This document shows, one piece after another, positions 26,612 through 55,825 of a stretch of 64,000 nucleotides of DNA. The stretch spans positions 2,190,905 through 2,254,904 of the forward strand of contig NZ_AP017378.1 of NCBI RefSeq assembly GCF_003966735.1, read 5' to 3'. The translations under genes and the position numbers were made by a program. Each line of letters opens with the position of its first letter. Position 1 is the first letter of the stretch. The notes below the pieces were generated by a model. The model had not been told where the DNA came from, did no database searches, and saw nothing but the letters and a program-made list of their open reading frames with translations. The DNA comes from Desulfovibrio ferrophilus. GTDB lineage: Bacteria; Desulfobacterota; Desulfovibrionia; Desulfovibrionales; Desulfovibrionaceae.

Positions 26612-26676
26612 TATTCATCAAAACGAAACGGGCTTAGCGCGTACGGCGATTTTTGCATTTTAAACGCTCCGGCCTG

Positions 26677-26801
26677 TAGAGCGTTCAGGGATGGTCAGAT
26701 GCCAGGCGCGAGAGAAATTGGAGATCGATGCGTATATGGACATACGCGAGATTTCAAATTTCCCGCAGCAACGCCGCAGATGGCCGTTCATGGACGCTCT
26801 A
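26677..26801 (-). repeat. palindromic intergenic element, copy 1
   Basis: Outer arms TAGAGCGT (26677-26684) and ACGCTCTA (26794-26801) end two bases from the aminotransferase stop codon. The conserved boxes are CAGGCGCGAGA (variant of AGGCGCAA) and GCAGCAACGCCGCAGATGG. The inner hairpin has GCGTAT/ATACGC at its tip. A competing hairpin, AACGCTC/GAGCGTT (26663-26685), uses the same left arm. A terminator or mRNA 3'-end role is inferred. Confidence 0.75.
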
Positions 26802-26802
26802 G

Positions 26803-27993
26803 CTACGCCAACTTCCTATAGGCCTTTTTGAACCCTTCAGCCGACCTGCGAATAACTTCCTCGCCCACACAAAATGCGAGGCGGAAGTAACCAGGGCAGC
26901 CGAAGCCCGACCCTGGAACCGCCAGAATCAACTCTTCCTGCAAGGCGGCACAGAACGCCACGTCGTCTCCGCCCGGAGCTTCGGGGAAGAAGTAGAACGC
27001 GCCCTTGGGCATGGTGAAGTTGTAGCCAGCATCGTCCAGGACCTTGGTCATGGCCTTGCGGCGCTCGGCGTAGACCGTCACGTTGACCTGCGAGCCAATG
27101 GCCTCGGCCATGACCTTCTGACCAATGGCCGGGGCATTGACGAAGCCCAGAATCCGGTTGGCCAGAATCAGGCCACCCAGCAACTGCTCCTTGCCAGGCA
27201 TCTGCGGGGCCACCGTCGCGTAGCCCACTCGCTCTCCTGCCAGGGACAGGTTCTTGGAAAAAGAACTGACCGCAATGGCATAGTCATACAGGGGCAGAAT
27301 GGAAGGAACCTCGATACCGTCAAAGACCAGGAATCGATACGGCTCGTCGGCCACCAGATAGATGGGCCGGCCATACTCCTCGCTCTTGGCCTTCAGGATC
27401 GCGGCAAGCCCCTCCAACTCTTCCTTGGCATAGACTGCGCCCGAGGGGTTGTTGGGCGAGTTGATGAGCACGATACGGGTCTTGGCGTTGATCCCGGCCT
27501 CCAGGGCCTCCAGATCAAGCTCGAAGGTCAGGGGCTTGGCGGGCACGGACTTGAACACACCGCCGTGATTCTGGGTATAGAACCCATACTCCACAAAATA
27601 GGGGGCAGGGCTCAATACCTCGTCACCGGGGTTGAGTACCGCACGCATGATAACGTTCAAAGCACCGGCAGCACCGCAGGTGATGATCACATCGCCCGCA
27701 TCAATGTCCACGCCCTGCTCCTTGGACAGGTATCCTGCCAGAGCTTCACGCGCAAAGGGATAGCCGGGGTTAGGCATGTAGCCAAAGGCAAAGGGCTTGT
27801 CTGCCGCTTCTGCAACATTACCAATAGCCGTTGCCACGGCCTTGGGCGGAGCGAGGTCGGGATTGCCAAGGCTGAAATCGCAGACAGCATCTTCGCCGTG
27901 CTGGGCCTTGAGTTCAATACCGGTCTCGAACATTTTCCTGATCCACGACGACTTCTTGATGTAGCCGCCGACCTGTTCGGAAAGCATCTGCAT
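26803..27993 (-). CDS. PLP-dependent class I/II aminotransferase
   Basis: The product has 396 residues. The PLP lysine lies in SSFSKNLSLAGERVGY, the family NSPNNPSGAVY motif holds the Asn that contacts the cofactor, and VADEPYRFL holds the Asp that binds the pyridine nitrogen. A C-terminal Arg in GYFRLAFCVG binds the substrate carboxylate. It belongs to the aspartate/alanine aminotransferase superfamily. The exact amino acid is not clear. It lies 63 bp after the sigma-54 activator gene on the same strand and may be co-transcribed with it. Confidence 0.9.
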   Translation of the reverse strand: MQMLSEQVGGYIKKSSWIRKMFETGIELKAQHGEDAVCDFSLGNPDLAPPKAVATAIGNVAEAADKPFAFGYMPNPGYPFAREALAGYLSKEQGVDIDAGDVIITCGAAGALNVIMRAVLNPGDEVLSPAPYFVEYGFYTQNHGGVFKSVPAKPLTFELDLEALEAGINAKTRIVLINSPNNPSGAVYAKEELEGLAAILKAKSEEYGRPIYLVADEPYRFLVFDGIEVPSILPLYDYAIAVSSFSKNLSLAGERVGYATVAPQMPGKEQLLGGLILANRILGFVNAPAIGQKVMAEAIGSQVNVTVYAERRKAMTKVLDDAGYNFTMPKGAFYFFPEAPGGDDVAFCAALQEELILAVPGSGFGCPGYFRLAFCVGEEVIRRSAEGFKKAYRKLA

Positions 27994-37112: not shown

Positions 37113-37244
37113 CCTTCATTTAGTATTGCATCTTCTCCATGCTGCCAGAAAGACAGCTCCAGTCAGTCATTTTCCCAAGCATCCACTTCTCTCATCTGCG
37201 GTAAGATACCAAGCTCAAGCGCAGTTCGGAACCGCAACCGGACC

Positions 37245-37365
37245 GGGAGAGGTTTGGGTGGTCGGATGCAAGGCGCAAAGGAATTTCAAGCTCGCCGCGT
37301 ATTTGGCATACGCTAGGGCTTGAAATCCCTACGGCAACGAAGCAGATGGCTGCTCAAAACCTCCC
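37245..37365 (-). repeat. palindromic intergenic element, copy 2
   Basis: Outer arms GGGAGAGGTTT (37245-37255) and AAACCTCCC (37357-37365) pair with a two-base bulge, three bases from the hsp20 stop codon. Boxes AAGGCGCAA and GGCAACGAAGCAGATGG are present. The inner stem ATTTCAAGC (37283-37291) / GCTTGAAAT (37318-37326) plus GCGTAT/ATACGC forms the hairpin. Confidence 0.8.
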
Positions 37366-37367
37366 GA

Positions 37368-37733
37368 TCATCCGGCCTTGATCTCAATCCGCTTAGGCAC
37401 AGCCTTCTCGGCCTTGGGAAGGTGCAACTCCAGCACCCCGTTATCCACGTTGGCCTTGATCTTTTCGCGGTCTACGGTGTTGGAGAGCTTGAAGGCCCGG
37501 CGATATTCGCACCCACCGAACTCGACCTCGATGAACTTCTCGTCGGCTCCGGGCTCGAAGCAAGCACGCCCGGTAACGACCAACTCGTTTTCATTGAGAT
37601 CGATGATCAAATCCTCCTTGGCAACACCGGGGACGTCCATGAAGATATGAAAGCCGTCCTCGCGCTCCAGAATATCGGAGGGTTGACGATAGCGGGGCAG
37701 ATTCTCTTCGTGCTTTTGGATGTCGTTTGTCAT
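37368..37733 (-). CDS. Hsp20 small heat-shock protein (second of a pair)
   Basis: The product has 121 residues. The alpha-crystallin domain runs from about residue 20 (REDGFHIFMDVPGVAKEDLIIDLNENELVVTG) to NVDNGVLELHLPKAEKAVPKRIEI, with the C-terminal R-I-E-I standing in for the I-x-I oligomer motif. It is an ATP-independent holdase. It follows the first hsp20 gene by 13 bp with an AGGAGGTC ribosome site. The two probably form mixed oligomers, which is inference. Confidence 0.93.
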   Translation of the reverse strand: MTNDIQKHEENLPRYRQPSDILEREDGFHIFMDVPGVAKEDLIIDLNENELVVTGRACFEPGADEKFIEVEFGGCEYRRAFKLSNTVDREKIKANVDNGVLELHLPKAEKAVPKRIEIKAG

Positions 37734-43907: not shown

Positions 43908-43977
43908 TTCAGTACCCTCAGGGGCTGGCAGAAACAATTGGCCCTGAGCCTTTCCCGGTCACGCCAAAACCGCTTTC

Positions 43978-44013
43978 ACCGCAACGAAGCAAACGTGCGT
44001 TTTTCAACAGCCA
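43978..44013 (-). repeat. degraded palindromic element at the serB 3' end
   Basis: Only the right half is recognisable: CGCAACGAAGCAAACGTGCG followed by TTTTTCAACAGCC, two bases from the serB stop. It matches the right box of copies 3 and 5. A weak GGGGCTGGCAG at 43920 may be the left arm. Confidence 0.5.
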
Positions 44014-44014
44014 A

Positions 44015-45226
44015 CTATTCGGCTTCGCGATCCCGCAGCCCGAGAAGATAGAGAATGCCGTCCAACCCCAGCGTCGAAATGGCCTGTCGCGCGCCTTCGC
44101 GCACAATGGGCTTGGCATGGAAGGCGATGCCCAGCCCTGCGACCCCCAGCATGGGCAGGTCGTTGGCTCCGTCACCCACGGCAACCACCTGTTGCAGGCT
44201 GATGTCCTCGGTCAGTGCGATTTCTTCAAGCAGTTCGGCCTTGCGCTTGCCGTCCACGATCTCGCCCACGACCTTGCCGGTGAGCTTTCCGTCCTTGATC
44301 TCCAATTCGTTGGCGTAGACGTGGTCCACCCCCAGCTTGCGCTTCAGATGCTGTCCGAAATAGGTGAATCCCCCCGAAAGAATGGCTATCTTGTAACCCA
44401 ACTTCTTCAGGTTGGAGACCAGGCGTTCGGCACCCTCGGTAAAGGGCACCTCTTCTGCCACCTCTTCCAGCACCGAGGCATCCAATCCCTTGAGCAGGGC
44501 CACACGCTCTCGCAGGCTTTCCTTGAAATCCAACTCCCCACGCATGGCGGATTCGGTGATGCGCGAGACTTCGTCCACAACCCCGGCCTTGCGCGCCAGT
44601 TCGTCGATGACCTCGGCCTGAATCAGGGTGGAGTCCATATCGAAAGCCACCAGTCTACGATTACGACGATAGACATTGTCCTCCTGGAAGGAGATGTCCA
44701 CGCCCAACTCGCCGGTAATATCCATGAAGGCCGACCGCAGTTGTAACATGTCGCTGGGCTCACCACGCACGGAGAATTCCACACAGGCTCTGGGCAATGC
44801 ATCCGGCTTGACCAGGGAGATACGTCCAGACAGGCGGGAAATGAAATCGATATTCAAACCGACATCGGTCATCACCCCGGTGACCCGGGCAATCTGCTCG
44901 GCCCCGATCTCGCGCGAGAGCAATGTCACGATATAACGCTTGCGGCCCTGGGCCTGGACCCAGTCCTCATGCTTGGCCTCGGTCACGGGCACGAACTTCA
45001 GCTTCACGCCCAGTTCGTTGGCTCCGTAGAGCAAATCCTTGAGGATGGGGGCGGAACCCTGTGCCTCGGGAATATCGATGATCATGCCCAAGGACAGGGT
45101 GTTGTGGATCACGGCCTGGCCAAGGTCGAGGATACGCACGCCATAATCCGCCAGAATGCGGGACATGTGCGACATGATGCCCGGCTTGTCCTCACCGGAG
45201 ATCTTGATCAGAAATATTTCGGACAT
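44015..45226 (-). CDS. serB: phosphoserine phosphatase with ACT domains
   Basis: The product has 403 residues. Two ACT domains come first (FLIKISGEDKPGIMSHMSRIL and YIVTLLSREIGAEQIARVTG). The HAD phosphatase domain begins at LVAFDMDSTLIQAEVIDELA (about residue 190) and has the motifs ILSGGFTYFG and VAVGDGANDLPML. It makes serine from phosphoserine in the cytoplasm; the ACT domains probably bind serine as feedback. The length matches the ACT-SerB type found in Desulfovibrio and mycobacteria. Confidence 0.95.
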   Translation of the reverse strand: MSEIFLIKISGEDKPGIMSHMSRILADYGVRILDLGQAVIHNTLSLGMIIDIPEAQGSAPILKDLLYGANELGVKLKFVPVTEAKHEDWVQAQGRKRYIVTLLSREIGAEQIARVTGVMTDVGLNIDFISRLSGRISLVKPDALPRACVEFSVRGEPSDMLQLRSAFMDITGELGVDISFQEDNVYRRNRRLVAFDMDSTLIQAEVIDELARKAGVVDEVSRITESAMRGELDFKESLRERVALLKGLDASVLEEVAEEVPFTEGAERLVSNLKKLGYKIAILSGGFTYFGQHLKRKLGVDHVYANELEIKDGKLTGKVVGEIVDGKRKAELLEEIALTEDISLQQVVAVGDGANDLPMLGVAGLGIAFHAKPIVREGARQAISTLGLDGILYLLGLRDREAE

Positions 45227-45287
45227 GAATAGTGTCTCCGTTTGGCCGACGTTGTAACCGCTTTAACCTTGGAAGGAAAGTCTCGTC

Positions 45288-45400
45288 AGGGCGGTTTCAG
45301 GCAGTCGCAAGAACTATACGAGATCGATGTGTATATAAGCGTACACGAGATTTAGCCTTGTTCGCAGCAACGCAGCAAACGTGCATTTCCCAGCGGCCCT
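45288..45400 (-). repeat. palindromic intergenic element, copy 3
   Basis: The most diverged full copy. Outer arms are AGGGC (45288-45292) and GCCCT (45396-45400), which overlaps the murJ stop codon. The boxes are CAGTCGCAAGA and GCAGCAACGCAGCAAACGTG. The inner hairpin keeps TGTGTA/TACACG with GAGATC-GAGATT arms that pair poorly. Confidence 0.6.
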
Positions 45401-46925
45401 AGCGCCCCAATCTGCGGCGTAGCACATCCACCACCATCCTCGCCTCTGGCACTTTGAGCAGCCAGGTCGCCACCCCGTAGCCCACGCCCCAGAGGGGGAC
45501 CAATGCCACAGCCCAACGGCCAAGCCCGATGGTCAGCCATGCCGCCGCGCCCATGACCAGCGACAAGGCGACAAACAGCGCCACCTGTCGCCAGAAATCA
45601 GCCCAGCGGCCCAGATGGCGATTCAGCCCGCGCAACAGCAATCCGGCATTGACCCACGAGGAAATCGTCGTCGCAAGAGCCAGTCCCACATGATCCATGA
45701 CTTGCATCAGAGTCACGCCCGAGATCACATAGACCAGCAGACTGACTACGGCGGCTCGCACCGGGGTCCGGGTATCCTGCAAGGCATAGCAGGCAGAAAC
45801 CAACGGGCGGACCATGGCAAAGGCAGGCAGGCCCACGCCGTATCCCACCAACGCCCAGGCAGTCATGCTCACGGCCTCGGCGCTGAAGGCCCCGCGCCCG
45901 AAGAGCAATGAGACAATGGGTTCGGACAGGCCTATGAGGCCGGCCGCGGCAGGCAGGCTGATAAATAAGGTCAGGCGCAGACTGGCGGACAATGTCTGAC
46001 GAAAATCATCCATCTGCCCCTTGGCCGCCAGCAGAGACAGGCTCGGCAACGCCGCAGTAGACACGGCCACCCCGAACACGCCAAGGGGGAATTGTACCAA
46101 CCGATCAGCGTAGTACAGATACGAAATACTACCCACGGCCAGGAATGAGGCCAGCACCGTGCCCAGAATAATGTTGATCTGATAGACTGCCGCGCCGAAG
46201 ACCGTGGGCAACATCAGCTTGCCGGTCTTCTTGACTCCCGGATTGGAAAACGACCACGGCCCGCGCCACGAAAAGCCAAGACGCGCCAGATACGGCTGCT
46301 GCAACAACCATTGCCCAAGGCCCGCCAGAACAACGCCCCAAGCCAGACAATGCGGCACACTCCAGCCCATGGCCACACCCGCCAGAGCCGAGGCAATGAG
46401 CACCGTATTGAGTATGCACGGGGCCAGAGCCGGAGCCAGAAAATGGCCTGAAGAATTGAGGATGCCCATGCACAGGGCCACCCCGGAGATGAAAATGATG
46501 TAGGGGAAGCAGATACGCACCAGTTCCGCTGTCACGGCCACCAGTTGCGGGTCATCCGCAAAGCCCGGTGCGACGACAAGGACCAGCGGCTTGGCCAGCA
46601 GTCCAGCACAGGCCGTAATCACGCCCAGGATCAACACCAGCCAGACAAGGGCCGACCGGGCAAAGGTATGGGCCTCGGCCTCGCCCGAGTCCTCACGAGT
46701 CCGGGTGAAGACCGGCACAAAAGCCATGGTCAGCGACCCTTCGCCGAACAGTCGCCGCAGCAGATTGGGCAGACGGAAGGCCACGAAAAAAGCATCCGCC
46801 ATCGGCCCTGCACCCAAGGCAAAGGCAATGATCAGGTCACGCAAAAAGCCGAGGATGCGTGAGGCCAACGTGGCCCCGCCCACCACTGCGGCATTTTTTG
46901 CGACGGTCTTGGAATGACTGTTCAA
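45399..46925 (-). CDS. murJ: lipid II flippase MurJ
   Basis: The product has 508 residues from a TTG at 46925 that has GGAGA seven bases upstream and gives NSHSKTVAKNAAVVGGATLASRILGFLRD. The open frame extends to 46970 without a ribosome site. About fourteen transmembrane helices are present. Conserved MurJ segments are ADAFFVAFRLPNLLRRLFGEGSL with its Arg residues, GAFSAEAV and ACYALQDTRTPVRAA. It moves lipid II across the inner membrane for peptidoglycan synthesis. Confidence 0.92.
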   Translation of the reverse strand: MNSHSKTVAKNAAVVGGATLASRILGFLRDLIIAFALGAGPMADAFFVAFRLPNLLRRLFGEGSLTMAFVPVFTRTREDSGEAEAHTFARSALVWLVLILGVITACAGLLAKPLVLVVAPGFADDPQLVAVTAELVRICFPYIIFISGVALCMGILNSSGHFLAPALAPCILNTVLIASALAGVAMGWSVPHCLAWGVVLAGLGQWLLQQPYLARLGFSWRGPWSFSNPGVKKTGKLMLPTVFGAAVYQINIILGTVLASFLAVGSISYLYYADRLVQFPLGVFGVAVSTAALPSLSLLAAKGQMDDFRQTLSASLRLTLFISLPAAAGLIGLSEPIVSLLFGRGAFSAEAVSMTAWALVGYGVGLPAFAMVRPLVSACYALQDTRTPVRAAVVSLLVYVISGVTLMQVMDHVGLALATTISSWVNAGLLLRGLNRHLGRWADFWRQVALFVALSLVMGAAAWLTIGLGRWAVALVPLWGVGYGVATWLLKVPEARMVVDVLRRRLGR

Positions 46926-47156
46926 TCTGATCTCCGACTGCCGGAGGTACCGCCCCCGATTAATAACCAAAGGGAATCAACACCTTGGGAATCCTACTTA
47001 AACTTATTCGATTATGATCTTCGCCATCTACAATCAATACTCGGGAGCGTCCATTGAGTGCCCCACGGCTCTTCCCTTCTTCACAAGCTGCTCACCCTAC
47101 GGCGGTCCGACAGACACACTATTTTCTTCGCAGGCCGTTCAGAGCACATTCCCCGC
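46926..47156. other. intergenic gap upstream of murJ
   Basis: Apart from the murJ ribosome site, nothing is recognised here. Short plus-strand open frames (from 47014) run into the repeat copy and have no ribosome site or family match. Confidence 0.4.
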
Positions 47157-47279
47157 AGGCTGTCCCAGAGTGGTCGGATGCGAGGCGCAAGAGGAAGACG
47201 AAATCGAAGCGTATCAAGACATACGTGAGATTTCATCTTTCCCGCAGCAACAAAGCAGACAGCTGCTCTCGGGCGGCCT
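47157..47279 (-). repeat. palindromic intergenic element, copy 4
   Basis: Left arm AGGCTGTCCCAGAG (47157-47170) pairs with CTCTCGGGCGGCCT (47266-47279), 14 positions with two G-U and one mismatch. The right arm contains the first two bases of the mutM stop on the plus-strand view and the codons before it. Boxes GCGAGGCGCAAGA and GCAGCAACAAAGCAGACAG are present. The inner stem AAGACGAAATC / GATTTCATCTT and GCGTAT/ATACG complete it. Confidence 0.8.
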
Positions 47280-48120
47280 ACCGTTGGCACTTATGACAGA
47301 AGACTGTTGTCCGGCCCGCCACCGTACGCTTGGCAAGTAGGGTTTGGCAATTGCGGCACGGCTGCCCCGCACGGCCATAGACCCTGAAATCATTCTGAAA
47401 GGCTCCGGCATCACCCCGGGCATTGACGTAATCGCTGATGGAGGAGCCATTGGCGGCAATGGCCTCGTTCAGGACTTCCACCAACTCTTGGTGCAGACGC
47501 ATGAGCCGCGCCCGCGACACACGATCGGCCGCAGCATCGGGGCGGATACCCGCCCGGAACAGGGATTCGTCGGCGTAGATATTGCCAATACCAGCGATGA
47601 ATTTTTGGTTGAGCAGCAGGGCCTTGATGCCCCCCCGGCGGCCCTTGAACAGACCCGCAAACTGTTCGGCGTTGATCTCCAGCGGCTCTGGCCCGAGGGT
47701 AGCCCAGAATGCCCAGTGCGGCAGACCTTCCAACGGCATGGCCCGACACGATCCGAACTTGCGGACGTCCGCAAAAAACAGATGCCTGCCATCGGCAAGA
47801 TCAAAGACGATGCGGGTATGGGGCCGGGGCTCGGTCTGCGCGGGTTCCACAGTAAGCCGACCGGTCATGCGCAGGTGAAAGGCCAGATGCAGGAGTGGGC
47901 GCTTGGCGGTGGCAAGGTCCATAAACAACACCTTGGCGCGGCGCCGGACCCGCAGGATGCGTGCCCCGGGCAACTCGGCCAGGAATTCATCGTGGCCTAA
48001 CGCTCCGGTTCCCGTGGACAGGGACCCGGACTCCAGCAACCGAACGCCGGAGATGGATGCCTCGGCAAGATCGGTTGCCAACCCTCGGGCAATGGTTTCA
48101 ACCTCGGGCAATTCGGGCAT
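47278..48120 (-). CDS. mutM: formamidopyrimidine-DNA glycosylase
   Basis: The product has 280 residues. It starts MPELPEVETIARGL, where Pro2 and Glu3 are catalytic; the start codon is therefore certain. KFIAGIGNIYADESLF is the helix-two-turn-helix region. The C-terminal zinc finger is CRNCQTLLAKRTVAGRTTVFCHKC. It removes 8-oxoguanine and other oxidised purines from DNA. It follows the ChaN-like lipoprotein gene by six bases and ends inside repeat copy 4. Confidence 0.97.
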   Translation of the reverse strand: MPELPEVETIARGLATDLAEASISGVRLLESGSLSTGTGALGHDEFLAELPGARILRVRRRAKVLFMDLATAKRPLLHLAFHLRMTGRLTVEPAQTEPRPHTRIVFDLADGRHLFFADVRKFGSCRAMPLEGLPHWAFWATLGPEPLEINAEQFAGLFKGRRGGIKALLLNQKFIAGIGNIYADESLFRAGIRPDAAADRVSRARLMRLHQELVEVLNEAIAANGSSISDYVNARGDAGAFQNDFRVYGRAGQPCRNCQTLLAKRTVAGRTTVFCHKCQR

Positions 48121-48126
48121 GTGCCG

Positions 48127-49290
48127 CTACTCGCCCTCGGGCTTACCGTGCGACAAAGGCAGGGACAATGAGACCCGCTCCTCCCCACGCAGCACGACGA
48201 AATTCAGCGGCACCCCATCCTTCTTGGCTTGAATTGCGGCCTTGTGCAGCACCCACAAATCCTCGGCCTCCATGCCCTGCACCGTCTCGATGCGATCACC
48301 GGGCATGAATCCGGCCTTGGCAGCTTTGGTCTCCGGAGCCACAGCCACAACCTCGGCATAACCGGGGAACTGTTCCAGCGTGAACCCAAGACGCGACGAA
48401 TGCGTCAACGCACAGTAAAAAAAGAGATCCCCAGCCTCGGCATCCACATCATCCAGCCCACGCCAGGGCATGATGGTCAACACTCCGGCATCGGCATCCA
48501 GCGCATGCAGACGATGCGGGATGCCCCAGCTGTATTCCACGTGCCCGGAGCCAGCCAGAATGAGCATGGTTCCGCCCAAACGCCCGCGCACGGCCACGGC
48601 ATTCTCGGCCATGATCGTATCCCACAGGGATTGAATCAACAGGAACCGCTCTTCCTCATCCTTGATTTTGCGCTCGGTCATCATGCCTTGATGCCGCTCG
48701 AATTCTTCATGCAGTGAATCGACCTGATCGTCGGTGGGAGGGATAATGCGCGAGGGCAGATACTGGCGGTCGGCCTCTTCCACACCATCCAGTCCATTGG
48801 CGGACACGGCTCTCACCACCCGCTTGGGAACGTTCAGGGCAAACAATGGAACCCCGCGCTCGGCAGCCTCGCGAAACACAGGGGCGTAACCTGCGTAGGA
48901 ATGACCCCAGATCGCTTTCCAATCCAATTCCTTTCCAAGATCGTCCACGTTGATTTCACCGGCATTGAAGCGATCCAGCACGGGCTGCTTGTCCATGGGG
49001 ACCATCTCCAACCCGAGTGCAGAGACCAAACCGACATCGGCAAGCGCGGCCAAGATGTCGGCCTGCACGCGATGGTCACAGGCCACGGTATGGCCCTCGC
49101 CCAACAGCACATAGGCCGTACTTCGAACCCGTTCGGTCAACTGGGCCGTGGACAGGGCCTCGCCGCCGGGTTCGAACAAATCACCAGGGAGTATGTCTTG
49201 CATAGGCATGGGGGTTGTAGCGCAACCGCCCAGGACCGCTGCCACAACAATGGCGACAATCCAGAGGCGAAAAGTTTTTATCAAAGTCAT
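48127..49290 (-). CDS. ChaN-like lipoprotein with C-terminal PDZ domain
   Basis: The product has 387 residues from ATG 49290 (AGGA site). The signal peptide ends in the lipobox LGGC, so it is lipid-anchored. The ChaN domain (about 55-290) has STAYVLLGEGHTVACDHRVQ and GTMLILAGSGHVEYSWGIP, with His residues at the expected positions; ChaN proteins bind haem. The last ~90 residues form a PDZ domain (AAKAGFMPGDRIETVQGMEAEDL). A ChaN-PDZ fusion is known in some delta- and gammaproteobacteria. A role in haem/iron uptake is inferred. It is probably co-transcribed with mutM. Confidence 0.82.
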   Translation of the reverse strand: MTLIKTFRLWIVAIVVAAVLGGCATTPMPMQDILPGDLFEPGGEALSTAQLTERVRSTAYVLLGEGHTVACDHRVQADILAALADVGLVSALGLEMVPMDKQPVLDRFNAGEINVDDLGKELDWKAIWGHSYAGYAPVFREAAERGVPLFALNVPKRVVRAVSANGLDGVEEADRQYLPSRIIPPTDDQVDSLHEEFERHQGMMTERKIKDEEERFLLIQSLWDTIMAENAVAVRGRLGGTMLILAGSGHVEYSWGIPHRLHALDADAGVLTIMPWRGLDDVDAEAGDLFFYCALTHSSRLGFTLEQFPGYAEVVAVAPETKAAKAGFMPGDRIETVQGMEAEDLWVLHKAAIQAKKDGVPLNFVVLRGEERVSLSLPLSHGKPEGE

Positions 49291-49401
49291 GTCCTGTCCT
49301 GCGTTATCGAGTCGTTCAAACAATGCCATAGTAGCGGCTCGGCAACACGGAGACAAGCCCACCTTGCACGGAGATTCAACACCATACCGATCCAATTATT
49401 T

Positions 49402-49512
49402 TGGAGCAACTAAGCAGACATGCATCTACAAGCAGCCAGCCCCGTTTGAGAGCCTAGTGAGCCGTGAGGGCGAGGCGCAAAAAAAGGGCAGGCACAATGT
49501 GTATCTTGCTCC
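49402..49512 (-). repeat. broken copies of the palindromic element
   Basis: A right-half remnant (GAGCAACTAAGCAGACATGC, 49402-49421) is followed by a left-half remnant (GAGGGCGAGGCGCAAAAAAA near 49475, then GGGCAGGCACAATGTGTAT). The latter is close to the left half of copy 5, so it is probably a duplicated and truncated copy. They lie upstream of the ChaN-like gene rather than after a gene. Confidence 0.5.
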
Positions 49513-49571
49513 AAGCTACCAGCAAGCGGCTTCAATTCTTACCGACACAAAACGCACTTCGGCTCCCTACC

Positions 49572-49699
49572 AACAGACGGGTTGAAGGCGTACGGATGTG
49601 AGGCGCAAAAAAAGGGCAGGCCCGACGTGTATCTGAAATACACGAGGGTCTGCCCTTTTAGCAGTAACAAAACAAACGTGCGTCTACAGCCCGTCTGTT
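49572..49699 (-). repeat. palindromic intergenic element, copy 5 (terminator-like)
   Basis: Outer arms AACAGACGGGTTG (49572-49584) and CAGCCCGTCTGTT (49687-49699) pair over 13 positions with one G-U. The right arm overlaps the ligase stop codon. The inner stem AAAAGGGCAG (49610-49619) / CTGCCCTTTT (49650-49659) is perfect, with GTGTAT/ATACAC at the tip. On the minus strand the hairpin is followed by seven T then GCGCCT, so this copy can act as an intrinsic terminator. Confidence 0.85.
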
Positions 49700-50963
49700 A
49701 ATCCCACTTGCGCTTGTCTTCGATGGGCCGAATCTGCGGAGGCAGAGTACCGGGAGCCACAATCTTCAGCTCGGGGCGCAGTTTGATCTGCTGGCGGAAG
49801 TCATGCAGCATCTCGTCCTCGCGCTTGAAGTTGCTGGCCTCCACGTAGAGAACCATCTCGTCGATGCCACCGGGGTTGGTGACTTCGATCTGCCAGCGCT
49901 TGACTTCTTCGAAGCGGGCCATGACCTGCTCGACCTGATGGGGGTAAACGAACATGCCCTTGATGCGGGTGGTGGTGTCCACACGGCCCACAATACCGCC
50001 CAAACGGGGCGAAGTACGCCCACAGGGGCAGGGGGAACGGTCGATGTAACCCAGGTCGCCGGTGGCGAGGCGGATCAGCGGATAGGTCTTGTTAAAGGCC
50101 GTGACCACGATCTCACCCACTTCGCCATCCTTCAGGGGGATGCCGGTGTCGGGGTGGCAGATCTCCACGAAAGAGCGGTTGGCAATATGCAGGCCGGTGG
50201 TGTGGAAGCATTCATAACCGATGCAGCCCACGTCGGCAGTGCCGTAGCCCTGGCGCATGATGAGGTCGAATTTCTTTTCCAGAGAGGAACGCATCTTCTC
50301 GGAGAACTTTTCGCCGGTGACGAAAGCCACTTCCAGATACAGATCCTTGCGCAGGTTCAACCCGGCTTCCTCGGCCTTCTGGGCCAGGTGCATCAGGTAA
50401 CTGGGGGTACCGACATAGCCGGTGACGCGCAGCTTCTGCAGAATCTCAAGCTGGGTATTGGTGTTGCCGGGGCCGGCAGGCACCACGGAGCAACCCAGAT
50501 TACGAAGAGGCTCTTCGAACATCAGACCCGCGGGGGTCAGGTGATAGTTGAAGGTCACCTGAGACAGATCACCAGTACGGAAACCGGCAGCGTAGAAGCC
50601 CTCGGTCCATCCCCAGTAATCATCACTTCTGTCTTCGGGATCAAAGATCGGTCCGGGGGACAGGAACACGCGGCGCAGTTCGCCCAGATCCTTGGTCAGC
50701 AGCCCGCCAAGACGCGGTCCCATGGACTGCAGGAAGATCAGTTCCTTCTTCTTGAGGATGGGGATGTGCTTCAGGTCGTTCAGGGTCTTGAACTTGTCCA
50801 CATTGAACTGCGCCCGGTCGAAACGCTTCTTCACGTCTTCGGAATAGCGGTAGGCGTAGGTCAGCAGTTCCTTGAGCTGGATGGCATAGTATTGCTTGCG
50901 CTCGGACTCGTCGAGTACCTCGCGCCGAGAATAAATGCCTTCGGTACGGTCTTTACGGGTCAT
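49698..50963 (-). CDS. phenylacetate-CoA ligase family protein
   Basis: The product has 421 residues, typical of PaaK-like AMP-forming ligases. The AMP-binding region includes VPAGPGNTNTQ and MRQGYGTADVGCIGYEC. The adenylate site is LIRLATGDLGYI, and GRVDTTTRIKGMFVYPHQVEQVM begins the C-terminal domain. It would activate an aryl acid to its CoA thioester in the cytoplasm. Sulfate reducers often carry several copies linked to indoleacetate or phenylacetate metabolism. The substrate is not determined. The Shine-Dalgarno is weak (GGAGAATAACCG). Confidence 0.9.
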   Translation of the reverse strand: MTRKDRTEGIYSRREVLDESERKQYYAIQLKELLTYAYRYSEDVKKRFDRAQFNVDKFKTLNDLKHIPILKKKELIFLQSMGPRLGGLLTKDLGELRRVFLSPGPIFDPEDRSDDYWGWTEGFYAAGFRTGDLSQVTFNYHLTPAGLMFEEPLRNLGCSVVPAGPGNTNTQLEILQKLRVTGYVGTPSYLMHLAQKAEEAGLNLRKDLYLEVAFVTGEKFSEKMRSSLEKKFDLIMRQGYGTADVGCIGYECFHTTGLHIANRSFVEICHPDTGIPLKDGEVGEIVVTAFNKTYPLIRLATGDLGYIDRSPCPCGRTSPRLGGIVGRVDTTTRIKGMFVYPHQVEQVMARFEEVKRWQIEVTNPGGIDEMVLYVEASNFKREDEMLHDFRQQIKLRPELKIVAPGTLPPQIRPIEDKRKWD

Positions 50964-51106
50964 CGGTTATTCTCCATTCGAATAGATTGTCAGATAGAGT
51001 GAACCGTGACTTATAGCAGAGAGAAGCTGATATTTCAAGTTATTTTTTATAATATCATATATTACAGCTTGTTACAATAGCAAAATTGAAATTTATGGAC
51101 TCGTTT

Positions 51107-52453
51107 TTACAGCTTCAACATCTCGGCCAGAGTCTCCAATCCACGCTTCAATGTGGCGCGGTCACGCACCCCGGACAAGGAGACTCGCACCCCCTGCTCG
51201 GCCCCCAAACCACCCACCGCAAAATGTTCGGTGTGGGCCACGATAACGCCCCGCTCCGCTGCGGTCTCGGCAAAATCAACAGCCCGCCACCCCCGGGGCA
51301 TGGGCACCCAGATATAGCTGCCGGTGGTCTGCCCCCTGAAGGCATCCTTGCCCAGGACCTCACGCGCCAGTTCGTTGCGCGCCGCGGCCTCGGTGCGGTT
51401 GGCCTCCACAATGCGCATGGCGGAACCATCGCTGATCCAGATGGAGGTAATTTCCGCCATCAGACCGGCGGCCTTCCAGGCAGACATCTCGATGGCGGAT
51501 TCAAGGCGGCGCACCGCCTGCGGTGGCACACACAAAAACGCCACGCGCAGGCCGTCGCACAGCACCTTGGATGTGGCGGCGATGAAATATCCCAACTCTG
51601 GAGCCAGCATGGATAACGGCGGCAGGGACGAATCCACGGCCAAGGCATAGACGTCGTCTTCCACAATGGACAGCCCGTGACGGCGGCAGACCGCGGCCAC
51701 CTCATGGCGGCGAAACTCCGGCATCCGCGCCAGGGTCGGATTCTGACAGGCGGGCATGGTATACAGACCGCGGATCTTGTCGCGCACACAGGCTGCATTC
51801 AGAGCATCAGGCATCAGGCCCTGCTCATCCATGGGAATGGGCACCAATTGCAGGGACAGACGCTTGGCCATGGGCTTGACCATGGGATAGGTCAGGCTTT
51901 CCACGGCCACCCGGTCGCCGGGGCTGAACATGGCTGCCAACGTTGCCAGAATGGCATGCTGCGCCCCGGCGCAGACCAATACATTGTCCGCCTGAGCGGT
52001 GTAGCCATACTCCGCAGCCCAGCGCACACCGGCCTCCCGGTGACGGGGCAGTCCTCGTGATTCGTGCCGGGTCAACAGCTCCTGTAATCCGTCACGGCCC
52101 GCAAGCTCGGCCAGGGTCGCCCCCAAAGACGGCCCCAGAGGATAAGTAGTCGCGGCAAGACCCAGATCCACCACTCCGTCATTCTGCCCCAGTTCGGCAA
52201 AGCCCTGCCGATCCTGCATCACATAGGTTCCACGCCCCCGCTCGCCGCGCACCAGCCCGCGCCGGGCGGCCTCGGCATAACCGCGTGTCACCGTGCCTAC
52301 GGTCACGCCCAGCTGATCCGCCAGATCGCGGTGCGTGGGCAACGGATCGCCAGGAGCCAAACGTCCCTCGGCCACTGCCGCCTGAATGAAATCCGCAATG
52401 GACAGGTACTTGGGGCAATCGCCGGTCTCGGGAAGCTGCATCGATATTGTCAT
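51107..52453 (-). CDS. MocR-type transcriptional regulator (GntR-aminotransferase fusion)
   Basis: The product has 448 residues from ATG 52453. The N-terminal winged helix (KYLSIADFIQAAVAEGRLAPGDPLPTHRDLADQLGVTVGTVTRGY) is GntR-like. The rest is a class I aminotransferase-like domain with VEDDVYALAVDS and a PLP-lysine region AATSKVLCDGLRVAFL. It is divergent from a LysE-type exporter gene, so it probably responds to an amino acid or amine and controls that exporter. Direct repeats overlap its own start region. Confidence 0.9.
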   Translation of the reverse strand: MTISMQLPETGDCPKYLSIADFIQAAVAEGRLAPGDPLPTHRDLADQLGVTVGTVTRGYAEAARRGLVRGERGRGTYVMQDRQGFAELGQNDGVVDLGLAATTYPLGPSLGATLAELAGRDGLQELLTRHESRGLPRHREAGVRWAAEYGYTAQADNVLVCAGAQHAILATLAAMFSPGDRVAVESLTYPMVKPMAKRLSLQLVPIPMDEQGLMPDALNAACVRDKIRGLYTMPACQNPTLARMPEFRRHEVAAVCRRHGLSIVEDDVYALAVDSSLPPLSMLAPELGYFIAATSKVLCDGLRVAFLCVPPQAVRRLESAIEMSAWKAAGLMAEITSIWISDGSAMRIVEANRTEAAARNELAREVLGKDAFRGQTTGSYIWVPMPRGWRAVDFAETAAERGVIVAHTEHFAVGGLGAEQGVRVSLSGVRDRATLKRGLETLAEMLKL

Positions 52454-52469
52454 GGTCACAATCGATATT
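52440..52469. promoter_or_regulatory. direct-repeat operator candidate between mocR-type gene and lysE
   Basis: ATCGATATT occurs at 52440-52448 and 52461-52469, 21 bp apart, or two helical turns, in the same orientation. It is bordered by TTGTCATGG/TGGTCACAA. Direct repeats are the usual operators of MocR regulators. The site covers the regulator start codon, consistent with autorepression. Confidence 0.5.
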
Positions 52470-52561
52470 TTGACCAAACAATTGTGTCAACCGTAAACAG
52501 GGGCAAGCTCGACAACCGGCCTCCGAGGCCGGGCACCATTTCTAGCCTTTGGAGAATCCCC

Positions 52562-53173
52562 GTGTTTGAGAACCTGATCCCGCTCATCCTGTTCTGCTTC
52601 GGCATGACCGTAACCCCCGGACCAAACAACATCATCATGACGGCCACGGGCGCGAACCACGGCTACCGAGCAAGCCTGCCACATATTCTGGGGGCCACAC
52701 TGAGCATCCCGGTGATGTGCATGATGGTGGGCGTAGGCCTCGGGCAATTGATCCTGCTTTATCCCCCCGCGCACACAGCCCTGAATCTGGCTGGGTCGGC
52801 CTATCTGCTCTGGCTGGCCTGGAAGGTCGCCAACTACAGCGGCACGGTGGACGGCAAGGACGCGGGTCAGCCCCTGACCTTCATGCAGGCCGTGGTCTTC
52901 CAATGGCTGAACCCCAAATGCTGGATGATGTATATCGGTGCGGTGTCCATGTTCACGACCAGCGGCGGCAACGTATTCCTGCAAGTCTTCATCATCGCAG
53001 CCGTTTTCACGGTCATGGTGCCGCCCTGTTTCTCGTTCTGGTCGCTGGCGGGCGTGGGCGTGGGGCGCTTCCTGACCTCCCCGGCGCGCCGCCGCGCCTT
53101 CAATCTGACACTGGCGCTACTGCTTGTGGCATCGCTGGTACTGGCGCAACTGCCGCAGGACGGAATGGGGTAA
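52562..53173 (+). CDS. LysE-family amino acid exporter
   Basis: The product has 203 residues from GTG 52562 (TTTGGAGAA ribosome site), giving the usual FENLIPLILFCFGMTVTPGPNNIIM start; P-G-P-N-N is the family signature. About six transmembrane helices are present. The QAVVFQWLNPKCWMMYIGA segment matches RhtB/LysE proteins. It exports an amino acid or derivative through the inner membrane. The open frame continues upstream, but that part reads through the promoter region. Confidence 0.9.
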   Translation: MFENLIPLILFCFGMTVTPGPNNIIMTATGANHGYRASLPHILGATLSIPVMCMMVGVGLGQLILLYPPAHTALNLAGSAYLLWLAWKVANYSGTVDGKDAGQPLTFMQAVVFQWLNPKCWMMYIGAVSMFTTSGGNVFLQVFIIAAVFTVMVPPCFSFWSLAGVGVGRFLTSPARRRAFNLTLALLLVASLVLAQLPQDGMG

Positions 53174-53221
53174 CGAGGCATTCAGCAGAGGGTACCCCCT
53201 GACTATACAGCATGAAACAAC

Positions 53222-53253
53222 AAGCGGCAGTCCTCTTCGGGACTGCCGCTTTT
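53222..53253. terminator. terminator between lysE and MFS gene
   Basis: A perfect 12-bp stem AAGCGGCAGTCC / GGACTGCCGCTT with a six-base loop is followed by TTTCGTTT. Confidence 0.9.
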
Positions 53254-53286
53254 CGTTTCAGTAACTCCATTCAAACAAGAGGGAGC

Positions 53287-54414
53287 CTATCCCCTCATTC
53301 TCTTGAACCTCCATGCCACCACAGAGACCCCAAGGGCGTAGAAAACCAGCAGCCAGTTCCCCACAGCAAGCCCTACCGAGTTCACCAGCAATGGCCCCGA
53401 GAAATACCCACAGCCCCATGCCGCAAAGTACAACCCGGAGGCCCGGCCCTCGCAGTTGTGCCCCGCCAGTTCATTCACCAGAGCCATGGAAGCCGCAGCA
53501 AAACACCCGAGCCCAAGGCCCATGACAGCACCAGCAGCCATGTATCCCAAAGGATTCTCTCCGTTAAAACCAAGCAGCCCGACGCTGATGCACACAATTC
53601 CAACGGCGATGAATCTCCCCCGACCATAACGGTCGGACAGCATCCCCCCCAGCAATTGCGCAACGGCAAGCCCAGAGTAGACCACAAACAGAAACACACC
53701 CAAACGCTCCGGGGTATATCCAACCACGGCTGTCAGATGAACAGGGAGACAACTGACCAACAGCCCGTACACGGCCCCATAAAAGGGAACGACTCCCATC
53801 ACGGACCAAAGAGAGCGAGTCCGCCCCGCCCCTCTGCCCTTGGGCAACACTGTCTGCCGATTCTGCGGCAAGCGGCCCCACAACGAACTCACGACCAGCA
53901 CCAACGCCACAAGGCTCATCCCCGCAAACACCAGAAAAGGGTCCATCCCGGCCTGAACCAGATACCATGCGCCAATCACTGGCCCCAGCATGAGGCCGAG
54001 GTGAAAAGCCATGTTGTACAGCCCCATGACGCGTCCCCTCATGGTGGGATAGAGGCGACCAAGCAATGCCGGGGCAGAGGCCCAAACCGGAGCCTCCCCC
54101 GCACCCTGAATGAACCGGCCCACGTAAATGGCCTGCGGGCTTTGTGCATAGCTGAAAACCAGAGCGGACACGGCGATCAGAAAGCATCCCAGAGCCAGGA
54201 CCTGACAATACCCGTACTTATCCGCCCAACGCCCCACCGGGTACTGGCACAGCAGGTAGGACACGGCAAAACACGAGGCAATCCAGCCGGAGGATCGCAT
54301 GGTCCCGGACAACTGAAGGTATTTACTCGGCAGAGCAACGGAGGCCGTGCCCATGCCGATCATAATGAAAAACACGGCAAGGCAGAGCCCTACCAAAGGA
54401 ATATGGCGATGCAT
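53287..54414 (-). CDS. MFS transporter
   Basis: The product has 375 residues with about twelve transmembrane helices. The loop between helices 2 and 3 reads GRWADKYGY (major facilitator G-x-x-x-D-R-x-G-like), and a second copy GGMLSDRYGRGR lies in the C-terminal half. A motif-C-like GRFIQGAGEAPVWASAP suggests a drug/metabolite antiporter. The substrate is unknown. AAGGATGAATC precedes the ATG. The upstream 530 bp holds a candidate structured RNA on the other strand. Confidence 0.88.
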   Translation of the reverse strand: MHRHIPLVGLCLAVFFIMIGMGTASVALPSKYLQLSGTMRSSGWIASCFAVSYLLCQYPVGRWADKYGYCQVLALGCFLIAVSALVFSYAQSPQAIYVGRFIQGAGEAPVWASAPALLGRLYPTMRGRVMGLYNMAFHLGLMLGPVIGAWYLVQAGMDPFLVFAGMSLVALVLVVSSLWGRLPQNRQTVLPKGRGAGRTRSLWSVMGVVPFYGAVYGLLVSCLPVHLTAVVGYTPERLGVFLFVVYSGLAVAQLLGGMLSDRYGRGRFIAVGIVCISVGLLGFNGENPLGYMAAGAVMGLGLGCFAAASMALVNELAGHNCEGRASGLYFAAWGCGYFSGPLLVNSVGLAVGNWLLVFYALGVSVVAWRFKRMRG

Positions 54415-54606
54415 GATGATTCATCCTTGCGAATACAGCGGCAACCACGGCGAGAACGCCGCGCAAACCGCATGGTTCAGTGGGCGCAGGCTCAGACCCG
54501 CGTAGAACTAGGCAAAGGAAAGGGGGAGAATGGACGCAAAGAAGAACAAACCGACGCTCAGCGCAACCGGTTCGCCAGGATCATCAATGATGGTACATCC
54601 GCCCCT
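54415..54606. other. intergenic region upstream of the MFS gene
   Basis: No coding sequence is recognised. A weak plus-strand promoter (TTCGCC, 17 bp, TACATC; 54571-54599) lies at the right distance to start a transcript near 54607, just before the candidate structured RNA. Confidence 0.35.
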
Positions 54607-54610
54607 ATTG

Positions 54611-54791
54611 GCAGGGGGGAGGAGGAGAGGCGTTCCAAAGCAATACATTCATCAGATGACTCTCTTGTAAAAAGCAATGGTGAGCAAACCCTAGGTCCTG
54701 AAAGGAGTGCAGGTCAAGCTTCGAGGGGAAGCTTCCGGACCCCAAGACGACTGAAACCAACAGCTGAAGTTATTTTCTCCCTCCCTCCTGC
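54611..54791 (+). ncRNA. candidate structured RNA, 6S-like outline
   Basis: GCAGGGGGGAGG (54611-54622) pairs with CCTCCCTCCTGC (54780-54791), 12 contiguous pairs with one G-U, and the helix continues for five more after one mismatch. The enclosed 181 bases have no coding character. Inside are the hairpin AAGCTTC/GAAGCTT (54717-54733) and CCTG/CAGG (54697-54713). Size, a long closing helix and an internal TGGTGAGCA followed by GGTCC recall 6S RNA, but the match is weak and I cannot run a covariance search. Strand is assigned from the 6S resemblance and the weak promoter. Confidence 0.35.
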
Positions 54792-54833
54792 TGTGTTTGT
54801 TTCCCGCTCTAGCATTGTCGCGCCCCCACTCTT

Positions 54834-54960
54834 CTGGACTGTTCAGAAGTAGGCAAGTGCAAGGCGCAAAAAAACCTCAAGTCCGATGTGTGCTGATACG
54901 CACATGAGGGCTTGAGGTTTTTGCAGCAACACCGCAATTGCTTGCTTATGGACAGTCCAG
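54834..54960 (-). repeat. palindromic intergenic element, copy 6 (terminator-like)
   Basis: Outer arms CTGGACTGTTCA (54834-54845) and TGGACAGTCCAG (54949-54960) differ by one G-U pair. The right arm is the last four codons of the neighbouring gene. Boxes CAAGGCGCAA and GCAGCAACACCGCA are present. The inner stem AAAAACCTCAAG (54870-54881) / CTTGAGGTTTTT (54911-54922) is perfect over 12 bp. On the minus strand it is followed by T-run and GCGCCT, so termination is likely. Confidence 0.85.
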
Positions 54961-55662
54961 AGTAAAACGCCAGGAGCAGACCCACTGGGCAGGATGTTCA
55001 TCCGGCGGACAAGCCACGCACTCAGTCACGATGCGCGGGTCCACCTGCCGGGCAAAGCTGGTATACTCCACTGTGCCACCGGATTTGCAGGGATAGTCGG
55101 CCAAGCCTTTGCGGACGCGGGCCGTCTGCACTCGGCAGCGATTCATGCGGAAAATGAAAGAAGTCGGGGTTTCGTCCACGATCTCCCAGTCGTTGATATG
55201 GGCATACATGCGCTGGGCCAGACACTCTTTAAGCGCCTCCAGCCCACCGCCACGGGCAAGCCCAAGGGCCGCCATGGCGCGCGAGGCCTCCAGTGGCGCA
55301 AAGCGGGACCAGCAGGTATCGTTGACGCGCTTGGCGTCGTCCATGCCGGCCATGCCTTCCACCGCCTGAAACCAGACCCCGTCTGCAGCCAGCCAGGCTG
55401 TGCGCAGTTCCTTGCCCAAATCGGTCAGTGCCGTTTCATCCAGCCCGGCGAACAGATCTTTGAGCCCCTCACCGCCCAGGACCTTGGCGAGCTTGCGCTC
55501 CACAATGCCGGTCAGCCTATCCCCGGCTTCGGCTTCGGCCTCCAAGGCCCGTTCCAGCCCCATCTGATGCACGGCCTCGGCCAGCCACAGGCCGTAATGC
55601 GCCCCGGTCTGGCGCACGGTTTCGATGATCTGGCCTATCAATTCGTCACGTTTCTCACTCAT
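54946..55662 (-). CDS. cysteine-rich cytosolic protein, DUF6125-like
   Basis: The product has 238 residues with no signal peptide or membrane segment. The N-terminal half is helical. The C-terminal half has spaced cysteines in FIFRMNRCRVQTARV, YPCKSGG, TECVACPPDE and WVCSWRF. This recalls DUF6125 and the L-2-amino-thiazoline-4-carboxylate hydrolase-like group. The function is unknown. Its final codons double as the outer arm of repeat copy 6. Confidence 0.65.
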   Translation of the reverse strand: MSEKRDELIGQIIETVRQTGAHYGLWLAEAVHQMGLERALEAEAEAGDRLTGIVERKLAKVLGGEGLKDLFAGLDETALTDLGKELRTAWLAADGVWFQAVEGMAGMDDAKRVNDTCWSRFAPLEASRAMAALGLARGGGLEALKECLAQRMYAHINDWEIVDETPTSFIFRMNRCRVQTARVRKGLADYPCKSGGTVEYTSFARQVDPRIVTECVACPPDEHPAQWVCSWRFTLDCP

Positions 55663-55791: not shown

Positions 55792-55825
55792 AAAAAACCG
55801 GCAACCCCTTACGGGACTGCCGGTT
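55792..55825 (-). terminator. trmI terminator
   Basis: AACCGGCA and TGCCGGTT pair around a loop with a further CCC/GGG helix. Six T follow on the minus strand. Confidence 0.85.

Follow-up and report, generated by a model that had tools for sequence, protein, structure and literature searches.

How can one dispersed hairpin repeat carry outer arms that match the ends of several unrelated genes? A 64,000-nt stretch of the Desulfovibrio ferrophilus genome (RefSeq assembly GCF_003966735.1, contig NZ_AP017378.1, positions 2,190,905 to 2,254,904; hereafter the window) holds several copies of such a repeat. Three of these, called copies 4, 5 and 6, lie beside mutM, a phenylacetate-CoA-ligase-like gene and a DUF6125 gene. 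A first-pass annotation had proposed that the arm distal to each gene was copied from, or adapted to, the last codons of that gene, either through a fold-back template switch during insertion or through selection for a long closing stem at the mRNA end.

We found that both outer arms belong to the element: they follow a common consensus, and they co-vary both from copy to copy and, at fixed loci, from one species to the other. In most copies the right arm abuts the stop codon of an antiparallel gene, usually one on the leading strand. We interpret the element as a large dispersed hairpin repeat resembling the repetitive extragenic palindromic (REP) and enterobacterial repetitive intergenic consensus (ERIC) sequences, with coevolving arms of its own, spread as a unit and placed at gene ends, and we give this reading a probability of roughly 0.6.

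Element structure and arm covariation

A covariance model, R1, was built from an alignment of 24 genomic copies. It matched 134 places in the own genome (G000) at E ≤ 0.01 and 135 in a sister species (G001, the only other genome of the genus compared) at E ≤ 1e-4. Rfam gave no matches in the window, and a permissive Rfam search of seven loci gave three weak matches, none over an element. The repeat is about 127 nt long, and its plus strand reads as a single long imperfect hairpin with several helices. Moving inward, the order is outer helix, conserved internal loops (AGGCGCAA on the left, GCAGCAAC on the right), variable inner helix and conserved tip, near TGCGTAT/ATACGCGAG. The left and right outer arms, with family consensus GCAGGCCGTTCAAAAATGG and CCGTTTTTCAACGGCCTGC, respectively, pair over about 27 positions in a constant register, and a C-C mismatch occurs at arm position 10 in 54 of 116 copies. 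Gene placement was counted on 118 of 129 own hits (length 136-150), and subsequent counts use 116 copies, after removal of two reverse-strand readings of the same places.

All helices co-vary. In the 24-copy alignment, 42 of 47 pairs showed change on both sides, with 233 double-change cells compared with 70.1 in shuffles, and 88.7% of cells were paired, compared with 33-41% in slid registers. The outermost ten pairs alone contributed 71 double-change cells in these 24 copies (21.4 in shuffles). Across the 116 own copies, the outermost ten positions were Watson-Crick in 72.6% of cells, but in only 42.9% with arms swapped between copies, a control in which the same copies supply both sides.

Variants and arrangements of the element were also observed. 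One sub-group (L087, L110, L120, L132 and L140:2366-2511) apparently contains about 53 extra bases in the right half, so that R1 places the right arm too far inward. Most of its members have the motif GGTCTTGTAGGCTCGATGACTC... in common, and L111:2231-2425 and other hits near 195 nt in length perhaps also belong here. Within G000:C1, 11 same-strand neighbours have starts 91-147 nt apart, forming head-to-tail tandems almost without spacers, and eight pairs in opposite orientation (minus then plus) have starts 179-287 nt apart.

Placement against stop codons

To call coding frames, we trained a codon model on the sequence of the window itself. The right flank was clearly coding in 102 of the 118 near-full-length copies; 90 of these flanks were an antiparallel gene ending at or near the element, and 12 were parallel. 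The most frequent offset from arm edge to stop was 0 (27 of 90), and 66 of 90 fell within -4 to +4. Ten of the 90, including copy 6, were deep overlaps with the stop 11-18 bases inside the arm, and in four copies the stop lay 44-53 bases from the arm edge. Stops at the arm edge (n = 83) were TAG in 45 cases, TAA in 25 and TGA in 13, a mix that speaks against any fixed tag there; TAG was not significantly enriched at element-bearing genes (29/54 versus 206/517, p 0.06). The general rule is that the element abuts stop codons, and copies 4-6 are a special case of it. The elements and element parts in the window are as follows, with offsets from arm edge to stop.

26669..26811, plus strand: element, R1 128.7 bits, arms 26676-26702 and 26776-26802, outer helix paired at 17/19; neighbour an aminotransferase gene at 26803-27993, minus strand (PF00155), whose stop starts 1 base past the last arm base
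37235..37377, plus strand: element, likewise long-armed, R1 102 bits, arms 37242-37268 and 37342-37368; neighbour an Hsp20 gene at 37368-37733, minus strand (PF00011), offset 0
43975..44012, plus strand: solo right half of an element (repeat family D4), directly before the gene end at 44015 (open reading frame 44015-45226, minus strand)
45269..45410, plus strand: degenerate element, R1 73.8 bits, helix 9/19; neighbour a murJ-like gene at 45399-46970, minus strand (PF03023), offset -2
47148..47290, plus strand: copy 4, R1 127.6 bits, arms 47155-47181 and 47255-47281; neighbour mutM at 47278-48120, minus strand (PF01149/PF06831), offset -3; orthologue L164:127-269
49402..49490, plus strand: remnants of further elements by copy 5, right half and then left half (repeat families D4 and D5), also supported by alignment with the sister-species array
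49566..49707, plus strand: copy 5, R1 124.4 bits, arms 49573-49599 and 49672-49698; neighbour the phenylacetate-CoA-ligase-like gene at 49698-50963, minus strand (PF00501/PF14535), offset 0
54827..54969, plus strand: copy 6, R1 122.4 bits, arms 54834-54860 and 54934-54960; neighbour the DUF6125 gene at 54946-55662, minus strand (PF19620), overlapped by the element, offset -14

The complementarity first described for copies 4, 5 and 6 is borne out, with 17, 18 and 18 of 19 scored positions pairing, G-U included. The accompanying statement that the right arm lies in the 3' coding end or stop codon of the gene fits these copies unevenly: the arm holds the whole stop codon in copy 4 and the stop plus four codons in copy 6, and only one stop base in copy 5. 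Generally, the overlap is usually the stop codon or nothing.

The window also holds two similar ordinary hairpins, at 53219-53251 and 55793-55825, of the CGGCAGTCC...GGACTGCCG type and 2.6 kb apart; these are perhaps intrinsic terminators.

Origin of the arms

Several observations weigh against a copying of the distal arm from the neighbouring gene. The family consensus is recognisable in both arms. Pairing ceases at a fixed element edge: in 83 gene-abutting copies, 76.7% of cells were Watson-Crick in ten arm positions and 24.4% in the seven positions just outside the arm, with no continuation into codons. In the 26 copies that have no antiparallel gene end close to the arm, pairing (58.1%) still exceeds the swapped level, though it is weaker than in gene-abutting copies, and R1 has probably misplaced some of these. 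Stop-codon positions inside the arm were Watson-Crick in 50 of 78 cases; the frequency at those positions across the whole set of copies would give 54.9. In genome G017, near-identical left arms occur beside unrelated genes, an outcome that the first-pass annotation had itself named as refuting. In all nine fetched copies, the left arm differed from GTTCACGC or GTTGACGC by at most one mismatch, and of the nine frames that they end, eight match Pfam (UbiD, two ferredoxin-type proteins, an M48 peptidase, a cupin, PurD, PAPS reductase and an ammonium transporter) and one has no Pfam match.

The ligase locus leads to the same conclusion for a single copy. In the sister species, an element with different arms stands next to the ligase stop, and the counterpart of copy 5 (C33:82639-82780) comes after it. 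Copy 5 and this counterpart have the outermost arm bases CAACAGACGGG / CCGTCTG in common although the counterpart does not adjoin the gene, so copy 5 could have its arm sequence without the ligase end. At this locus a whole neighbouring element was gained or lost. In our reading, the match to the "last codons" comes from the position of the stop codon, at or within the arm of the element itself, and the left arm follows by compensation.

The other proposal of the first-pass annotation, that a long closing stem is maintained, is supported by orthologous loci, where both sides change together. The pairs came from successive filtering of the 129 own hits: 74 remained with a matched gene flank, then 46 with an element in the same orientation no more than 60 nt away, 43 with that element at full length, 35 with it within 10 nt and 34 with both helices at least 13/19, the last filter removing the degenerate element at window position 45269. 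Across these 34 pairs (646 positions), the left side changed at 197 positions and the right at 215. Double changes numbered 139, where independence of the two sides would give 66, and at 104 of them the bases are paired in both species. With the ligase pair removed, there were 128 double changes (60 expected), 93 of them paired in both species. A strict set of 27 pairs, in which whole-element replacement is unlikely because arms are at least 11/20 identical on each side, still showed 73 double changes compared with 31 expected, with 48 paired in both species. At L071:1301 and L189:568, the same frame ends in TAA and TGA, respectively, and the left arm mirrors the changed stop codon.

Individual loci varied. 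Copy 6 is identical to the aligned sister-species element over its full arm-to-arm length, and the flanking DNA differs. Copy 4 is intermediate, with both compensated and uncompensated differences from its orthologue. A few loci, such as L098:1301/L176:10212, have arms that are wholly different between the species yet matched; element replacement, fast compensation or template switching could each account for these. Candidate empty sites in the sister species, where alignable, are half-elements or DNA too diverged for a target-site duplication to be read.

The wholly different but matched arms at L098:1301/L176:10212, beside genes that are 90% identical, are what fold-back template switching (quasipalindrome correction) would leave if it remade the left arm from the gene-side arm, with no selection on structure, and the copy at L227 in a metagenome-assembled genome (MAG), with a long perfect arm unlike the consensus, also fits. 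We nonetheless consider this explanation improbable. Against it stand the family consensus with its fixed arm edge and the near-identical arms at unrelated genes; the inner stem and tip co-vary as well, and double changes persist where arms are mostly conserved. At single loci, template switching may still have renewed the arms.

Replication orientation, termination and the folded strand

Genes that end at an element are strongly biased towards the leading strand. An element was present at the 3' end of 44 of 297 leading-strand genes and 7 of 273 lagging-strand genes (p about 1e-7). The leading strand was set without reference to the elements, from GC skew in the window and in stretches of G001, on the assumption that positive skew marks the leading strand; stretches with a GC skew below 0.02 and genes without a called downstream neighbour were omitted, and the G001 stretches had been picked for holding elements, not for orientation. 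A version of this count with strand set by majority element orientation (50/298 versus 4/273) was circular, and the GC-skew version was used instead.

Orientation also falls into two chromosomal blocks, with 56 plus and 12 minus elements at 1.21-2.92 Mb and 11 plus and 55 minus elsewhere, a split for which any p-value is optimistic because its two breakpoints were fitted. Close to one orientation switch, at 2.93 Mb, is a DnaA-like gene that scores below the curated cut-off; with a stronger DnaA match at 0.25 Mb, it marks no more than a candidate origin.

This strand bias bears on whether the elements are transcription terminators, possibly bidirectional, or other mRNA 3'-end structures, selected as RNA with a closing stem at the mRNA end. 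Placement at stop codons is consistent with such a role. So is an A run (at least 5/6) that 41 of 116 copies keep next to the core stem, on the left of the outer helix. At least six A in the seven bases after GGCGC were found in 14 of 116, including copies 5 and 6 (six copies under a stricter pattern), and these would be a gene-sense U tract behind the inner stem. At L135:1301, where the flank is not clearly coding, the sister species has a long perfect hairpin followed by T's in place of the element, and at L138:1301 it has a weak short hairpin. However, terminators would be expected on lagging-strand genes as well, the outermost arms extend past the U tracts, no such A run accompanies the core stem in 75 of 116 copies, and the modest G-U lean described below sits on the antisense strand. 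A terminator role at some genes is plausible, given the terminator-like runs in a minority of copies and the hairpin with T's at L135, but it leaves the strand preference unexplained, and as an account of the whole family we regard it as doubtful.

Cells that are not Watson-Crick lean towards G-U over A-C on the plus strand, which is antisense to the gene. Part of this lean reflects base composition, as swapped arms already have a G-U share of 0.55 at positions 0-9 and 0.65 at positions 11-19. At positions 11-19, G-U outnumbered A-C by 151 to 43, above the swapped-arm background (p 1e-4), and 20 copies from other families gave 26 to 6, without a swapped control. These counts indicate, though not firmly, that folding of the antisense strand, as RNA or as single-stranded DNA, is what is kept.

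Distribution

The element is not confined to the genus. With R1 at E ≤ 1e-5 and stricter filters, matches occurred in 36 of 118 sampled genomes of the phylum (own genome included), or 27 of 92 genera, and the same architecture was found in other families and in named MAGs. Out of 20 copies from three other families, 17 face an antiparallel open reading frame of at least 90 open codons ending -11 to +3 from the arm edge. An exact core pattern was present in eight stretches of a named collection, seven from Desulfovibrio/Pseudodesulfovibrio MAGs and one, possibly the result of mis-binning, from a Patescibacteria MAG. The Patescibacteria copy (L227:3296-3437, minus strand) has a perfectly paired long outer arm that holds the stop of a 451-codon open frame.

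Weighing the interpretation

We favour a dispersed repeat with its own coevolving arms. Such an element would have spread as a unit carrying both arms, perhaps through single-stranded DNA in a REP-like process coupled to replication, and would be tolerated at gene ends or used there as a 3' boundary. With a stop codon at or inside the right arm, the left arm would then follow by compensatory change.

Several points weigh against this interpretation. The absolute paired percentages are inflated, since pairing energy partly guided the choice of the 24 seed copies and a structure-aware model was used to find the later ones. In 26 of 116 copies, no antiparallel gene ends close to the arm where R1 places it. 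At least the ligase pair, among the 34 "orthologous" pairs, sets different elements side by side. The G-U lean is marginal at positions 0-9 (111 versus 68, p 0.05). Among one-sided orthologue changes it was 56 versus 19 (p 0.0004 to 0.09 by choice of background), and in the 27 strict pairs 41 versus 18 (p 0.03 to 0.5 by background); a position-matched background weakens these p-values relative to one background for all positions. The favoured antisense strand would be the leading-strand template, while transposition of the IS200/IS605 type uses the lagging-strand template. The genome has a single Y1 transposase-like gene (Y1_Tnp, 219 aa; L200:1204-1863, minus strand; G000:C1:1883394-1884050), with no element hit within about 65 kb of it, and co-occurrence of Y1 transposases and the element in the 118 genomes was weak (12/23, p 0.02).

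A more ambitious idea, which we hold only tentatively, is that the element is an orientation-coded, chromosome-wide mark of gene ends, placed at leading-strand stops by a replication-coupled process, with its antisense strand kept folded by compensation, and common to several bacterial families. If true, such a mark would be a meeting point of transcription, translation termination and replication. Palindromic repeats at gene ends are common, and opinions on their nature range over parasites, terminators and mRNA caps. The present family offers sharp handles on that problem: a stop offset within a few bases, dozens of common loci with matched double changes, and a nearly sixfold leading-strand preference although called genes split almost evenly between the strands. 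The question of which strand folds, and when, becomes testable.

Comparison with known systems

We found no description of the element among the papers listed for stop-codon- or replication-oriented repeats or for Deltaproteobacteria palindromes (subscription journals and supplements were outside the scope), and a literature search by words of the element sequence returned no relevant title among those listed. Geobacter and Pelobacter genomes contain annotated multicopy intergenic sequences near genes, according to portions of PMC2700814 and PMC3543383; those portions gave no identification with the element, the supplementary family lists being outside the scope.

Integron attC sites have a folded-strand structure and variable arms near stop codons, and a recombination site of this type, with a folded bottom strand just past the stop codon, would bear a formal resemblance to the element. 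We consider this very unlikely, as the element's genome has no integron-integrase match over the TIGR02249 cut-off, and hits are scattered along the chromosome, in the window beside genes such as mutM, murJ and hsp20. The profile search did find two tyrosine recombinases, each matching in two pieces, which we take to be XerC/XerD-like.

Our preferred reading places the element closest to REP and ERIC sequences. REP sequences and bacterial interspersed mosaic elements (BIMEs) that accompany the transposase TnpA-REP (REP-associated tyrosine transposase, RAYT) are recognised as folded single strands and occur in groups (PMC8266576). Two further papers gave no help on REP sequences: PMC7509114 had nothing of use, and PMC5009743 no passage about them. 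Whereas a REP is a palindrome of 20-50 nt with a conserved tetranucleotide, the element here is about 127 nt long with several helices and conserved internal loops. Its arms also differ from copy to copy and co-vary, it has a strong replichore orientation, and no transposase gene lies near the copies. ERIC, or the intergenic repeat unit (IRU), is a 127-bp enterobacterial repeat that is intergenic and has transcripts with long base-paired stems (PMC2229807). The likeness of the element is one of size, intergenic position and long stems. An ERIC or a miniature inverted-repeat transposable element (MITE) would be expected to have terminal inverted repeats and a target-site duplication; terminal arms are present here, and the candidate empty sites are too diverged, or are half-elements, for a duplication to be read. 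In ERIC, the arms are conserved sequence, whereas in this element they vary and are held complementary.

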